48,945 bases of DNA from Clostridia bacterium (lineage in GTDB: Bacteria > Bacillota > Clostridia > Oscillospirales > CAG-272), in assembly GCA_017441005.1 (NCBI GenBank), contig JAFSAM010000060.1:1-48945 (forward strand). The letters run 5' to 3'. The notes beneath the pieces were generated by a model. That model saw only the letters and a program-made list of their open reading frames with translations, did no database searches and had not been told where the DNA came from. Below are positions 685 through 7,336 of this stretch, in pieces. A program made the translations under genes and the position numbers. The first letter of the stretch is position 1. The number at the start of each line of letters is the position of its first letter.

Positions 685-714
685 TTGACACTTTTGTATA
701 AAAAAAGATATAAT
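685..714 (+). promoter_or_regulatory. sigma-A promoter of gdhA
   Basis: Perfect TTGACA (685-690) and TATAAT (709-714) with an 18-bp spacer. The GGAGG ribosome site follows at 757-761, 10 nt before the gdhA ATG. Confidence 0.8.
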
Positions 715-2212: not shown

Positions 2213-3532
2213 TTATTTTTTTCTGTATACAGCTCTGTACGAAAGAATCACGATTGCTACAGCACTAATCGCCACCAGCAGTATGATCACGGTAAATGTT
2301 CGGCTTTTAGTTCCAAGAAAATAACCTCTTCCGTTTTCCTTACTTTCTTCGGTTTGCTCTGATTCATTCGGTAAGCTTTCGTCAGGCTCAATATCAGTAT
2401 CTCCCATCGTTTCCGACAGTGCAGGCAAAGTTTCGATTCCCTGCCCACCTTCGGTATTTTTGTTGATCAATACGCCCTGACCTTCTATCTTACGCACCAA
2501 CGTATCAACGTCCCAATCGTATGAATTGATATTAACAACCGAATAGTTTACCCGATCGTCGCCCTCATCAACGGTTTCTCCTTTTTCATCTGTTTCAGGT
2601 GCTTTTACTATCACGTCGGCAATTTTCAACAGACTCAAATTTTGCATATTTCCGCCGTTTATGTCTATAACGTTATGCTTTCCAAGTGCATAAATGCTCT
2701 TTTTGAAGGTACCGCCGTTTACAACGAATATGAATCCGCCGTCTACTCCGCCGATAGCTCCGACAGGTCCGTTAAAAACACCGCCGTAGACCGTAAGTTC
2801 AGCTCCGCCCTGTTGTTCGGTTTGTCCGACGACACTTGTTGCGGATACACGCCCCTCAAACATTCCTCCGTGAATTATCAACGTGGTATACCCCTTGACC
2901 CCGTTATCTCGGTTACCGGCACAAACGTCATTATACGTTCCGCTTCTGATAACAAGCATTCCCGAGCCGTTTTGGGCATCCGCATCATCCAATGATACCC
3001 CGATGACGGATATATATGGTGCATCTCCCTGCTTTTTACACACGATTCCTTCGCCAAACACCGTATCGTAGCCACCGCATATTATTGCCCTGGCCTTATC
3101 GGTTCCGTTCGTAACGATGTTGAGTTCTTCAAAAACAAACTTGCCCGCAAGTATCATATTTGCGGATTCTTTTCCGTCGCCAAAGCACAGCATAGCGTTG
3201 TCGGTCTCTCTGTAGTCATGGGAGCCGTCAAGGCTTGTTACCGTAATAATGTTATTACCATTTGACGTTCCGCCCCTCACCGACAGGTTAACCAACTCAG
3301 TTACGGTATATTTACCGCATATTATGATCTTTCCTCCACTGTGTTTTAACAGCTTTACAGCATCCCTGAAGCTTCCGACAGCCGCCGAGGGCGATGAGCC
3401 GTCCCCCGTTCCTCCGTCTTTGAGATACACTTTTTGGGGAACTGCCGCCTCTGCCGAAAATGTTATAAGCGCGCAAAAAAGCAAAACGAAAAACGCGCAT
3501 ACTGTATATTTAATTGTCTTTCGCCCGCGCAT
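2213..3532 (-). CDS. secreted, membrane-anchored beta-helix-like surface protein
   Basis: 439 residues of unknown function. It has an N-terminal signal peptide (MRGRKTIKYTVCAFFVLLFCALITFSAEA, cut near residue 29) and a C-terminal transmembrane helix with a short RKK tail (about 413-439), preceded by an acidic Ser/Glu-rich spacer. The segment VYLKDGGTGDGSSPSAAVGS and the repeated short Gly/Asn/Val strand pattern (GGMFEG, GGVFNG, GGTFKK, GGNMQN) suggest a right-handed parallel beta-helix exposed outside the cell. No LPXTG motif is present, so anchoring is by the helix. It is the second gene of an operon: its AAGGAG ribosome site overlaps the TAA stop of the upstream gene, 11 nt away, implying translational coupling. 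Confidence 0.7.
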   Translation of the reverse strand: MRGRKTIKYTVCAFFVLLFCALITFSAEAAVPQKVYLKDGGTGDGSSPSAAVGSFRDAVKLLKHSGGKIIICGKYTVTELVNLSVRGGTSNGNNIITVTSLDGSHDYRETDNAMLCFGDGKESANMILAGKFVFEELNIVTNGTDKARAIICGGYDTVFGEGIVCKKQGDAPYISVIGVSLDDADAQNGSGMLVIRSGTYNDVCAGNRDNGVKGYTTLIIHGGMFEGRVSATSVVGQTEQQGGAELTVYGGVFNGPVGAIGGVDGGFIFVVNGGTFKKSIYALGKHNVIDINGGNMQNLSLLKIADVIVKAPETDEKGETVDEGDDRVNYSVVNINSYDWDVDTLVRKIEGQGVLINKNTEGGQGIETLPALSETMGDTDIEPDESLPNESEQTEESKENGRGYFLGTKSRTFTVIILLVAISAVAIVILSYRAVYRKK

Positions 3533-3543
3533 AATTTGTCTCC

Positions 3544-5781
3544 TTATTCTTCTGCTTCCTCTACTGCATCTCCGTAATTGCAGGTAATCTCAAGCCAATC
3601 GAGACTACCCGCATAACAATAATTTACAGTCTCGCTTTCAAACCTGCCAAGCAAATTAGTGAATGTAAATGTGAATTCACTTTGCTCTGCGTATTCATAT
3701 AACAGCTCTTCACCGAAATACAGCGAAAAAGTCATACTTTCCGCATCATATCTAACAGACCACTCGCCCATCTCTCTGTTCATTTCGCCTGCTTCGCCGT
3801 AGCGGAGATAAAACGCCTTACCTCCATCGTCGACCAATCTTACCGAGTTAATATTCTTTGCAAAGGGGGCAAGATAAATACATCCGTAGGGACTTGAATC
3901 GTTACCCATCAGCATTCCCGTATCGTTAAGCATTCCCTTCCAGGCAATGCTCCAATCGGATGACGACGTAAGCTTAAGCGGCTTTTGCAAAACAAAATCC
4001 ACCTGCTTTTCGTTGGTGATCAATATACCGTTTTCAATTATATACTTTTCTGCATTACTCTTTTCGGAAAGGATAAGATCGTTTCTGCCAAGACTCTCGG
4101 CAAGTCCGTCAAAATCCCATCTGTAGGTAACGTTTCTCGAATCGGAAAACTCTTCCTCTACCCTTCTCTTCACATTAAAGCTGAAATCAACGTTAGAACA
4201 TTCAAATGTTATCTCAGCGACACCGTCAAAGCCCTCGATGTAATTCATTTCGATCACGCCACCCGTATAATAGGTAAGAAGAGTACTGTCATATTTTACA
4301 TTTACGGTCTTGTTTTCTGCATAGAGAGGAAGAACAAGCGCAACCGTTCTGACCGTCTCTCCGTTTTTTAACTCAACTGTAGCATTATCTTCAAGCAAGG
4401 TGTGGTGGGCATTTCCAAATACCTCGATTTTTTGTACCGCCCTGTCGCTTTCGGGCGAGTAGCACATAAACAGATTATAGGCAACGTCCTTACCTATCTC
4501 GTTATATCCGTTCTGTGTGTAATACAAATTTCCGTTGCTGATAAAGCCATTTTCTTCGTTAGCAGTTTCGGTAAGACGGGTAATGATCCTGATATCGGGA
4601 TTAGTATTCGCCAAAGCATACTGAGCGGAGCAAACAGCCTCGATCGCACCGTCGGTCTCAAGAGAGGAACGTACGGGGATGATTGCAAACATATCGGGAG
4701 AAGCTTTTTCTTTAAAGCCGTTATAAAAATCGTTAAAATAATAAATATACTCGCCTGAAGTCATATTGTTTGCTATATCCCATTCGCCGTGAAGCCAGAT
4801 GACAAACGTTCTTTTTACCGTATAAGGCGAATTCTCGTCGTTGAGTTTATCTCTATAATACTCAAATCTGCTCATAGCAAGATCAAAGGCCTCTCCGCTC
4901 TGTACCCATTCGGTGATGGACACATCGGAAACCGCCGTTTGAATAAACAAGCTCTTTTCACCGGTAAGAGAATACCAATTCTCAGCTAAAGCGGGTGTAA
5001 AGCCCGTTCTTCCCTCGGAAAGATCCTTCATTTCGTAATATCTGTCGTTTAATTCTGCGGTATATGCCGTTCCCGAAGGAGGATTTATACTTTCAAAAGC
5101 AGAGCCGTTTTCTCCTGCGGCATTTCCCTGACCGGCAACTATAAAAATATCTATAACAGCATTCACAGTTTCGTTTACTGTCATACTATCTACAAGAGTC
5201 TCGTTCACGAAGGCATTAACAGTGGCAGACCGATCACTTACCCCAACCGCTCTGATAACACCGTTTTCGTCGACAACAACGTTTGCGCCCTCTCCTACGA
5301 CCTGATATGTAAACACCTCATTTTCCTTTAACGTATAATCAGGCACAAATGTATATCTGTCATCGTACTGAAGGACAAAGCCCTCCGCTTCGGTCTTAAC
5401 AAATTTGACCTCATAGCTGTTTTGCATCTTACCGTCATCAAGATAGATTTTGGCAGAAGCAACGGTCGCTCCGCTTCCCATAATAGCCTGATCAACTTTT
5501 ATATCTACGTTTCTCGAAGCTGAGACTGCCATCACCTGAGGAATGACCGGATTTCCGTCAGGAATCTTTATTTCGTAATACCGCGTCTCGGGATCAAATA
5601 TCAAAGTCTCCCCGACGACCTTGATATCAGAAAGTCTGGGAGCTTCGGGGGGCGCCGGGATCGCCTCAGGCTCCTTAGGTACAACTTTATCAGTTTTGTA
5701 TGACACCATTAAAAGCATCAATGCGAATGATATCATCAAAAATACTATATATCCGATTTTCACTCTTTTCATTTTTTCCAT
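3544..5781 (-). CDS. extracellular SGNH/sialate-O-acetylesterase-like protein, probably catalytically dead
   Basis: 745 residues: N-terminal signal anchor (about 7-27), a Pro/Glu linker, a beta-rich region (about 50-205), an SGNH-hydrolase domain of SASA type (about 208-440), and a C-terminal beta-sandwich (about 555-740) resembling a LamG/concanavalin fold. The SGNH fold is recognised from IFIVAGQGNAAG (214-223), VIWLHGEWD (327-335) and LYYTQNGYNEIG (419-430). In active members these read GQSN, WxQGExD and DxxHxTxxGYxxIG. Here the nucleophilic Ser is Gly219, the oxyanion Gln is His331, and the Asp/His pair is Gly417/Tyr420. The substrate-fold scaffold is kept while all catalytic positions are changed. 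First gene of an operon with the 2213-3532 surface protein. The start may instead be Met4. Confidence 0.75.
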   Translation of the reverse strand: MEKMKRVKIGYIVFLMISFALMLLMVSYKTDKVVPKEPEAIPAPPEAPRLSDIKVVGETLIFDPETRYYEIKIPDGNPVIPQVMAVSASRNVDIKVDQAIMGSGATVASAKIYLDDGKMQNSYEVKFVKTEAEGFVLQYDDRYTFVPDYTLKENEVFTYQVVGEGANVVVDENGVIRAVGVSDRSATVNAFVNETLVDSMTVNETVNAVIDIFIVAGQGNAAGENGSAFESINPPSGTAYTAELNDRYYEMKDLSEGRTGFTPALAENWYSLTGEKSLFIQTAVSDVSITEWVQSGEAFDLAMSRFEYYRDKLNDENSPYTVKRTFVIWLHGEWDIANNMTSGEYIYYFNDFYNGFKEKASPDMFAIIPVRSSLETDGAIEAVCSAQYALANTNPDIRIITRLTETANEENGFISNGNLYYTQNGYNEIGKDVAYNLFMCYSPESDRAVQKIEVFGNAHHTLLEDNATVELKNGETVRTVALVLPLYAENKTVNVKYDSTLLTYYTGGVIEMNYIEGFDGVAEITFECSNVDFSFNVKRRVEEEFSDSRNVTYRWDFDGLAESLGRNDLILSEKSNAEKYIIENGILITNEKQVDFVLQKPLKLTSSSDWSIAWKGMLNDTGMLMGNDSSPYGCIYLAPFAKNINSVRLVDDGGKAFYLRYGEAGEMNREMGEWSVRYDAESMTFSLYFGEELLYEYAEQSEFTFTFTNLLGRFESETVNYCYAGSLDWLEITCNYGDAVEEAEE

Positions 5782-5831: not shown

Positions 5832-5860
5832 ATTATACCATTTTTAAGCCTCTGTGTCAA
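5832..5860 (-). promoter_or_regulatory. sigma-A promoter of the surface-protein operon
   Basis: Consensus TTGACA (5855-5860) and TATAAT (5832-5837) on the minus strand with a 17-bp spacer. It drives the genes at 3544-5781 and 2213-3532. Confidence 0.85.
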
Positions 5861-5928
5861 GGTTACGGTTTAGAGCTCGCTTCTTTGGGTAATACTGTAT
5901 ACATATAATATGTTATGAGGTGATTGGT

Positions 5929-6240
5929 TTGTTTAGCTTAAAACTCAAAAAAAACTTCTGTTTTTACTCGATACTGTTGATCATTGTATTCTTCCTTTGC
6001 GCCTGCAGTGCAAACCTTACAGGACACAAGATAGTCGGGATCTGGGAACACGAGGGAAACAGGATAGAATTTACCGACAACGGTTATTTTAAAAAGGGGA
6101 AGGAAAAATACACCTTTTCCGTTACCGACAGTCAGGTTACGATCGACACGGGCGGCGAGGCAATGACCCTTGACTACTCAATAAACGCAAACGGCACACT
6201 CACGATGAACGGTATAATCTACTACCCCGTCGGAAAATAA
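5929..6240 (+). CDS. small lipoprotein of unknown function
   Basis: About 103 residues. A hydrophobic leader ends in the lipobox LCAC, so the mature protein is a lipid-anchored piece of about 75 residues with a beta-rich sequence (VGIWEHEGNRIEFTDNGYF, TLTMNGIIYYPVG) resembling small lipocalin-like or DUF5640-type domains. The start is put at TTG 5929: GAGGTGAT (5917-5924) is a near-perfect ribosome site whose AGG lies 8 nt upstream. The alternative in-frame GTG at 5920 falls inside that site. A TATAAT at 5904-5909 could be its -10 box, but no convincing -35 is seen. Stands alone and ends in a strong terminator. Confidence 0.7.
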   Translation: MFSLKLKKNFCFYSILLIIVFFLCACSANLTGHKIVGIWEHEGNRIEFTDNGYFKKGKEKYTFSVTDSQVTIDTGGEAMTLDYSINANGTLTMNGIIYYPVGK

Positions 6241-6252
6241 AACCAAAATAAT

Positions 6253-6294
6253 AAAAAAAGACTTGATACGTTTTTTCGTATCAAGTCTTTTTTT
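6253..6294. terminator. bidirectional terminator
   Basis: A perfect 18-bp stem (6253-6270 with 6277-6294; core GACTTGATACG/CGTATCAAGTC) with a TTTTTT loop and A/T runs on both sides. It serves the convergent genes ending at 6240 and 6293. Confidence 0.9.
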
Positions 6295-7336
6295 ATGCGC
6301 CAAACAGTTCTTTTTTTATTTCCTCCGCAATCTTCATATTTTCGGAAAAATCCATAGATTCCGTGTAATATTTTTCAAGCTCCGAGTGCAGTGCAAAAAT
6401 ATCGTCAAAACCTTTTTGAACCCCCTCGTACAGCGAATTGAGACACCTTCTTGCAAATCTGTTTTTCTGTTTATTTTTTCTGAGTGCATCAAGGTCAATA
6501 AATCTGTCCATATTGATCTGACGTACATCAACAGAATCGTCATCACAGATCACAAACGAACTTTTTACCTCGGGAAAATATATAGCTTTGATGGCAGAAG
6601 GGTCAAGAACGCTCGGACTGTATACCGTCATAAGTCCCTTTTCCTTGGCAAGATCGATAAGCATATCCATAAAAATACAGCCTATTCCGTATCTGTCTTT
6701 GACTGCAAATTTATTTTCAGCCAAACTATTATATGTACCGTATACTATCCTACCCGCATGACTTATACTTTCAATCGGCCTAATGCTTCTCTTGTAGCCC
6801 TTTCCCCTTTTCCAGATACGCCCCAAACGCTGAACAGCCATATTCATTTTTTCTTTAAGCAAACACCGTCCATTGCATACCGTAAGCTCGTTTTCAACCC
6901 TCCCAGCAGCAGAAAGATAATTATATACGTTGTTGTACAGTATCTTTTTTGTGTCGGTTATTTCGCAAATCTCATTTGTATACATTCTCAATTTTTCACT
7001 GTTCCAATTATCCCCCAGATTGATTATTACGTCTCTTACTCCGGGATATCGAGGCTCGTATGAATGCGGCAGTGTGCCGTCTATTATTCCGCAATTCAGT
7101 TCCTCGATTATAATTCCGTCAAGCGACAAGGGATCTGACGAGCAGTAAAAGTATTCTATCGTATAACCTTTTCTTTCCGCTCCGTCCGCTATGTTTCTGA
7201 TAAGGCTTGATTTTCCCGTTCCCGGTCCCCCCTTGATTATATACAGTCGATCAAGTCCGCCGTATATTTCATCAAAATAGGAAACAAAGCCTTTTTCCGT
7301 ATTAGCGGACGCAAAATATCTCTTTTCGTTCTGCAT
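6293..7336 (-). CDS. PRK06851-type P-loop ATPase of unknown function
   Basis: 347 residues. A Walker A motif GGPGTGKS lies at 36-43, following the family-typical RYFASANTEKGFVSYFDEIY opening. Further family-like pieces are YFYCSSDPLSLDGIIIEELN and PGVRDVIINLGDNW. Recognised as the PRK06851 family of Firmicutes ATPases from memory of its pattern; no substrate or pathway is known to me. The ribosome site GGGGAG lies 9 nt before the ATG. It is monocistronic, convergent with the small lipoprotein gene, and follows purL on the same strand but with a terminator between them. Confidence 0.7.
   Translation of the reverse strand: MQNEKRYFASANTEKGFVSYFDEIYGGLDRLYIIKGGPGTGKSSLIRNIADGAERKGYTIEYFYCSSDPLSLDGIIIEELNCGIIDGTLPHSYEPRYPGVRDVIINLGDNWNSEKLRMYTNEICEITDTKKILYNNVYNYLSAAGRVENELTVCNGRCLLKEKMNMAVQRLGRIWKRGKGYKRSIRPIESISHAGRIVYGTYNSLAENKFAVKDRYGIGCIFMDMLIDLAKEKGLMTVYSPSVLDPSAIKAIYFPEVKSSFVICDDDSVDVRQINMDRFIDLDALRKNKQKNRFARRCLNSLYEGVQKGFDDIFALHSELEKYYTESMDFSENMKIAEEIKKELFGA

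Follow-up and report, generated by a model that had tools for sequence, protein, structure and literature searches.

The window, meaning the whole 48,945-base stretch of DNA that was analysed, carries on its reverse strand a gene for a 745-residue protein with an esterase-like SASA domain that appears, from its residues, to be catalytically dead. The gene for this pseudo-SASA protein, its promoter and its neighbours are arranged as follows.

2213..3532, (-): beta-helix protein with a C-terminal hydrophobic helix; 11 bases downstream of the pseudo-SASA gene, same orientation
3544..5781, (-): pseudo-SASA protein, 745 aa, probably membrane-anchored (intact ORF, Pfam, orthologues)
3577..4143, (-): lectin-like C-terminal domain, residues 547-735, AbnA domain 4 fold (5hon_A)
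4150..4446, (-): beta-rich domain, residues 446-544 (model; the equivalent part of paralogues matches Pfam Big_2)
4456..5160, (-): SASA/SGNH domain, residues 208-442, catalytically dead by sequence (Pfam, VIA-align)
5161..5646, (-): N-terminal beta-rich region, residues 46-207 (model secondary structure; aligned in relatives)
5692..5778, (-): N-terminal helix, residues 2-30, likely an uncleaved membrane anchor of presumed topology (AlphaFold model, sequence)
5832..5860, (-): perfect sigma-70-type promoter, TTGACA-17-TATAAT, its second hexamer preceded by TG (12/12 consensus)
5920..6240, (+): small lipoprotein-like gene, DUF5640-like below cut-off, conserved neighbour
6293..7336, (-): P-loop ATPase gene, PRK06851-like below cut-off, conserved neighbour

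Domain layout and genomic setting

A preliminary description of this DNA gave the ORF, its strand, coordinates and residue numbers correctly, and the motifs that it quoted, IFIVAGQGNAAG, VIWLHGEWD and YTQNGYNEIG, are found in the protein. The SASA/SGNH domain that it proposed is real. SASA (PF03629) is the sole Pfam family above cut-off and matches residues 210-403 (E 1.7e-6, 28.2 bits, cut-off 24.8). An AlphaFold model based on six related proteins is of moderate quality (mean pLDDT 75.7, pTM 0.59), and pLDDT falls below 50 in stretches that include the pocket loops at 222-229 and 334-337. Residues 208-442 of the model were aligned by VIA-align with At4g34215 (2apj_C; Z 20.9, rmsd 2.4, 211 aligned), and the domain also fits 1zmb (Z 20.7) and NanS 3pt5 (Z 18.3). 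The SASA/CE6 esterases At4g34215 (2APJ), NanS (3PT5) and the putative acetylxylan esterase of C. acetobutylicum (1ZMB) share this fold and the block I Gln with the window protein. Unlike them, the window protein lacks the nucleophile Ser, the catalytic His and the block II Gly, and it adds an N-terminal helix and a lectin-like C-terminal domain. The latter, residues 547-735, matches domain 4 of the arabinanase AbnA (5hon_A; Z 14.8, rmsd 3.0, 173 aligned), a comparison of beta-sandwich fold at 12% identity rather than of ligand residues. The structure of AbnA domain 4 was solved with arabino-oligosaccharide bound. As for the surface attachment suggested earlier, the helix at residues 2-30 makes a membrane anchor likely, and the outward orientation is presumed.

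The ATPase, small lipoprotein, pseudo-SASA and beta-helix genes occur together in all five members of the clade described below (the ATPase of RUG13077 is a fragment at a contig end), and the gene of the more distant relative SIG694 has other neighbours. The short gap, the common orientation and the conservation of this arrangement in 5/5 members agree with the earlier suggestion that the pseudo-SASA and beta-helix proteins are made together. The beta-helix protein has hydrophobic helices at both its N- and C-terminus and matches nothing in Pfam or NCBIfam. In Foldseek it has no match at E 0.001 or better; the weak matches, many of them to beta-helix proteins, would indicate at most its fold class. 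Its family is expanded: at E <=0.001, genome G000 has 16 matching stretches (not genes), G018 has 38 and G101 has 22. Judged by eye, none of the genes directly beside the pseudo-SASA gene encodes a transporter, regulator or glycosidase. This points to a constant part in the envelope or in adhesion and away from a locus for inducible utilisation. The housekeeping-looking surroundings (by eye), taken together with the consensus promoter, also suggest a constant envelope role.

The promoter, described earlier as strong, is real as sequence. Exact consensus promoters number two in the window against 0.06 expected. A 12/12 promoter precedes the gene in all four genus members that carry it, and RUG13077 has TTGACA-17-TAAAAT, an 11/12 match read by eye whose position implies that the true start there would be the internal Met 16. 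The second exact consensus promoter of the window, at 685-714 (+), lies upstream of the gene at 772-2118, which is glutamate dehydrogenase-like by eye.

The catalytic site and its conservation

Five positions of the SASA catalytic blocks are altered in the window protein.

5125..5127, (-): Gly219 codon, replaces the nucleophile Ser (paralogue alignment, residue table, tree)
4924..4926, (-): Asp286 codon, replaces the block II Gly (residue table)
4789..4791, (-): His331 codon, replaces the block III Gln; not diagnostic (residue table)
4531..4533, (-): Gly417 codon, block V Asp position, variable in intact relatives (residue table)
4522..4524, (-): Tyr420 codon, replaces the catalytic His (paralogue alignment, residue table, tree)

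Both an alignment with six paralogues from the same genome and a residue table of 27 proteins place Gly219 at the nucleophile Ser and Tyr420 at the catalytic His, in agreement with the preliminary description; both replacements are common to all five clade members. Outside the clade and SIG694, the relatives in the table keep Ser in 21/21 and His in 21/21. The block II position is Gly in 19 of these 21 intact relatives. It is occupied by Asp286 in the four genus members and by Arg in RUG13077, a loss overlooked in the earlier list. The other two positions behave differently. Asp is found at position 417 in only 8/21 intact relatives (counted by hand from the table), and position 331 is Gln in 19/21 and His in 2/21. 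Even within the clade of five, Asp417 is kept in two members and Gln331 in two, and the block III motif is WLHGE in the window protein and WLQGE in 2/5 members. Since both positions vary in relatives with intact Ser and His, the losses of Asp417 and Gln331 are not diagnostic and were dropped as proof of a dead site, although the preliminary description had counted Gly417 among the telling losses. The variation at the Asp position is in line with the published SGNH enzymes, taken up below, that function without an Asp in the usual place. Its statement that every catalytic residue is replaced is true of the window protein and overstated as evidence. Nor does His331 mark a lost oxyanion Gln, as had been proposed. 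In SASA enzymes, the residue beside the catalytic Ser serves as the oxyanion Gln and is kept in position by the HQGE motif of block III (PMC9487903, section 8), and this block I residue is retained as Gln218 in 5/5 clade members. The argument for a dead site is carried by Ser, His and the block II Gly because these are kept in nearly all intact relatives, and it supports a site that is probably dead throughout the clade. Tyr420 is gained in all five members. Trp334 was considered as a second clade-specific aromatic gain and was dropped, as the other 22 table rows also have an aromatic residue at position 334 and the alignment crosses a gap there.

The gene is under purifying selection. The closest pair, G003/G004, has a dN/dS of 0.093 (dS 1.44; 741 codons; our own Nei-Gojobori script), and the measure is usable for this pair only because other pairs are near or past synonymous saturation. 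The window protein is most like its three genus orthologues in the SASA domain, at 57-62% identity; the N-terminal region follows with 48-54% and the C-terminal domain with 44-46%. Within the SASA domain, the four genus proteins all have the same residue at 44 of 64 positions of the four block loops vs 66 of 171 elsewhere (one-sided p 3.2e-5), and counting the five catalytic columns with the remainder gives 41/59 vs 69/176. For relatives with Ser and His intact, taken in three sets of four, the figures are 47/64 vs 73/168, 33/64 vs 53/165 and 42/64 vs 59/168. The same contrast in intact sets implies that the pocket, relative to the domain, is still as constrained; the need for a stable fold, and not a ligand, may account for this constraint.

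Relatives and phylogeny

Relatives were sought in 97 near genomes, 395 family genomes and 394 order genomes (overlapping sets), and by a pattern scan of 84,980 species genomes that gave 121 candidate stretches and 7 loci. Five full-length relatives were found besides the window protein, with identities to it of 53% (G001), 49% (G004), 47% (G003), 36% (RUG13077) and 32-33% (SIG694). The record of G001 gives water buffalo cecum as its source, and the clade records bear the names Oscillospiraceae, Clostridia and Ruminococcus. Gly for Ser and Tyr for His are found in the window protein, G001, G003, G004 and RUG13077. Chance or assembly error is unlikely because the same two changes occur in five different genomes. 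The fifth genus genome, G002 (70% complete), lacks the pseudo-SASA gene, and this absence is uninformative because the conserved neighbouring ATPase is also missing there.

The five catalytic columns were masked for tree building. The window protein, G001, G003, G004 and RUG13077 form one clade with support of 90/90 in a 27-row tree and 98/94 in a 37-row tree, so that the Ser and His losses are fixed in a clade (5/5 members), the outcome on which the preliminary description had proposed an alignment of homologues. SIG694 (L039:5915-8284) adjoins the clade (97/93 in 27 rows, 97/91 in 37 rows); it keeps the SASA Ser and Asp, but its catalytic His is replaced by Ser. SIG694 is thus a possible intermediate, and an order in which His was lost before Ser may be read from this one protein only. 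Its His loss may also be separate because the replacement differs (Ser, not Tyr). Among the other 32 proteins of the 37-row tree, 30 keep Ser and His, SIG694 lacks His only and L071 lacks both. Parsimony on this tree gives two Ser losses and two His losses, and 78 of 500 label shuffles were as clustered, the clade being small. L071 is on a long branch in this tree, and G003 and RUG13077 differ from the other rows in letter composition. In the 27-row tree, the clade and SIG694 together have the fully intact L066 (G338) as their sister (100/97), whereas the 37-row tree leaves L066 unplaced. The compact SASA protein L081:2049-3683, also listed for G338, has an intact set of Ser, block II Gly, Gln, Asp and His, and its GEFD motif is close to the GEWD of the clade. 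It is a candidate for an active sister of the clade, judged by these residues.

For the 27-protein table, the ORF pattern required GQ followed by S, G, A or T and so excluded other replacements. Re-examination of 20 loci, most of them excluded earlier, gave one more pseudo-SASA, L071 (the same gene as L130), which is in the 37-row tree. That tree omits nine of the 19 re-examination ORFs: the duplicates L079, L086, L089 and L082_2086, the fragments L072 and L080, and the three weakest matches, L047, L048 and L054, which keep Ser and His. The canonical SASA ORFs in L113 and L114 had no match in the re-examination and stand outside the residue counts, and L055 was excluded for a match confined to residues 50-129.

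By phylogeny, L130:66-2387 (G290; also L071) is a separate pseudo-SASA. It encodes 773 aa with a lipoprotein-like start, reads GGPN in block I and has Leu for the catalytic His and Asn for the block II Gly. Its C-terminal region differs from that of the window protein. The gene is followed by response regulator-like and histidine kinase-like genes (by eye), and a role as a sensor is possible.

Within the window's own genome, 20 stretches matched in a search: the pseudo-SASA gene itself accounts for one, and the rest lie in six further ORFs, on contigs C17, C36 (C36a and C36b), C2, C49 and C77. These paralogues resemble the window protein in their homologous N-terminal, SASA and following domains, and 4/6 also have its C-terminal domain; three have extra copies of that domain and two a dockerin-like repeat below cut-off. 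They differ in keeping the block I Ser and block V His in 6/6. C17 has Gly at the block V Asp position, and C77 has GG in block II. The pseudo-SASA protein is the only SASA protein that the near-genome, family and SASA-family searches found in G003 (80% complete) and G004 (97%). The SASA-family search was not exhaustive, as paralogue C2 of G000 and L084 of G101, both known from other searches, escaped it.

A probable change from esterase to glycan-binding protein

The best explanation, to which we assign a probability of about 0.6, is that the window protein is a pseudo-esterase turned surface glycan-binding protein. In one Clostridia clade, the nucleophile Ser, the catalytic His and the block II Gly have disappeared from a SASA/CE6-type domain, and ester hydrolysis by the altered domain would no longer be possible. 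The emptied pocket, its loops still constrained, may then hold a glycan, with a second glycan contact provided by the lectin-like C-terminal domain. The N-terminal helix would tether the protein outside the membrane beside its beta-helix partner, where it could capture or anchor polysaccharide. Carbohydrate binding is plausible given the conserved pocket loops and the AbnA domain 4-like fold predicted for the C-terminal domain. Any ligand may differ within the clade because the charges of Asp286 in the genus and Arg286 in RUG13077 differ. Against a glycan role, there is no glycan-degradation gene beside the pseudo-SASA gene.

The closest functional likeness is to CtCE2, an SGNH esterase of family CE2 from Clostridium thermocellum. 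The active site of CtCE2 also binds cellulose (PMC2661963), and the enzyme inactivated by one replacement is reported to have a nearly 8-fold higher affinity for cello-oligosaccharides (PMC7828330). One of the structures that the window protein matches in fold is 2wab, that of an active-site mutant (Z 13.0). The likeness lies in the use of an SGNH esterase pocket for non-catalytic polysaccharide binding, which for the window protein is proposed by analogy. CtCE2 differs in belonging to another family and in keeping its Ser-His dyad and activity, whereas the window site is dead by sequence. By this analogy, the window protein may work like CtCE2, though it is not of the CtCE2 family. A natural pseudo-esterase that binds polysaccharide is described in the C-terminal domain of PgaB, which is CE4-related (PMC7828330) and so of an esterase family other than SASA/CE6. 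This precedent is disputed, as glycoside hydrolase activity is reported for PgaB orthologues (PMC5933820). In the text available, the review of glycan-binding scaffolds names one natural sugar-binding pseudo-esterase, a disputed case (PMC7828330). No SASA/CE6-derived pseudo-esterase was found in the literature searched, which included few subscription papers.

A role other than glycan binding by the pocket has to be weighed. The dead domain could be structural, a scaffold or partner platform for the beta-helix protein or the lipoprotein, with any sugar binding done by the C-terminal lectin-like domain alone. We regard this as unlikely, though it is the most serious of the alternatives. Pseudoenzymes are described as often acting through protein contacts (PMC11266112), and the pseudo-SASA, beta-helix and lipoprotein genes stand together in 5/5 clade genomes and not beside the Ser-bearing gene of SIG694. 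However, the old substrate pocket is the most conserved part, as judged by linear positions rather than by mapping on the structure surface, and this speaks against the scaffold reading. The six Ser/His-intact paralogues in the window's genome raise the further idea of a dominant-negative or regulatory partner of active SASA enzymes in the same cell. This idea is weakened because G003 and G004 show no other SASA protein, and its chances are slim.

Only slightly less slim are the chances that the protein is still an enzyme by relocated or unusual catalysis. SGNH esterases tolerate loss or displacement of the Asp: CE2 Ser-His dyads and NanS are described as SGNH enzymes without a normally placed Asp (PMC9487903), and the water-mediated triad of CE20 is reported to give SGNH activity in the same situation (PMC12313940). 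The CE2 and CE20 variants retain Ser and His, however, and here both are gone together with the block II Gly. Moreover, over the whole length of the five clade proteins no His is invariant, so that they share no relocated Ser-His pair; the relocated triad that the preliminary description had raised against its own reading finds no shared candidate. Decay of the gene would account for the lost catalytic residues and is the least probable reading of all, since the protein is full-length in 5/5 members, dN/dS is low in the closest pair, and the pocket loops, promoter and neighbourhood are conserved. The preliminary description had likewise judged that the gene is not decaying.

The acetyl binding suggested in that description is without specific support in this analysis. 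A more elaborate form of the glycan-binding reading, in which the former esterase became a constitutive surface receptor, or reader, of the same O-acetylated sugar that it once cleaved, is doubtful as a whole. It would combine a target on a plant polymer, host mucin or the cell's own envelope, a conversion that removed His first and then Ser, a dedicated beta-helix partner, and conversion at least twice in the bacterial family, in the window clade and in L130. For the glycan-binding reading in general, the clade offers living stages in the form of intact relatives, the Ser-only SIG694 and the five proteins without both residues, so the change from enzyme pocket to receptor is testable with a handful of proteins. 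The clade proteins could also serve as ready-made polysaccharide probes.

Other SASA proteins have unusual architectures. The SASA paralogues L010:4086-8933 and L012:471-3779 have an N-terminal hydrophobic stretch followed by dockerin-like repeats, an odd placement for dockerins; the Dockerin_1 matches have E values of 0.015 and 0.001, respectively, both below cut-off. L046:2659-12930 (G015) encodes a protein of 3423 aa with a SASA-like domain in which Ser and His are kept.
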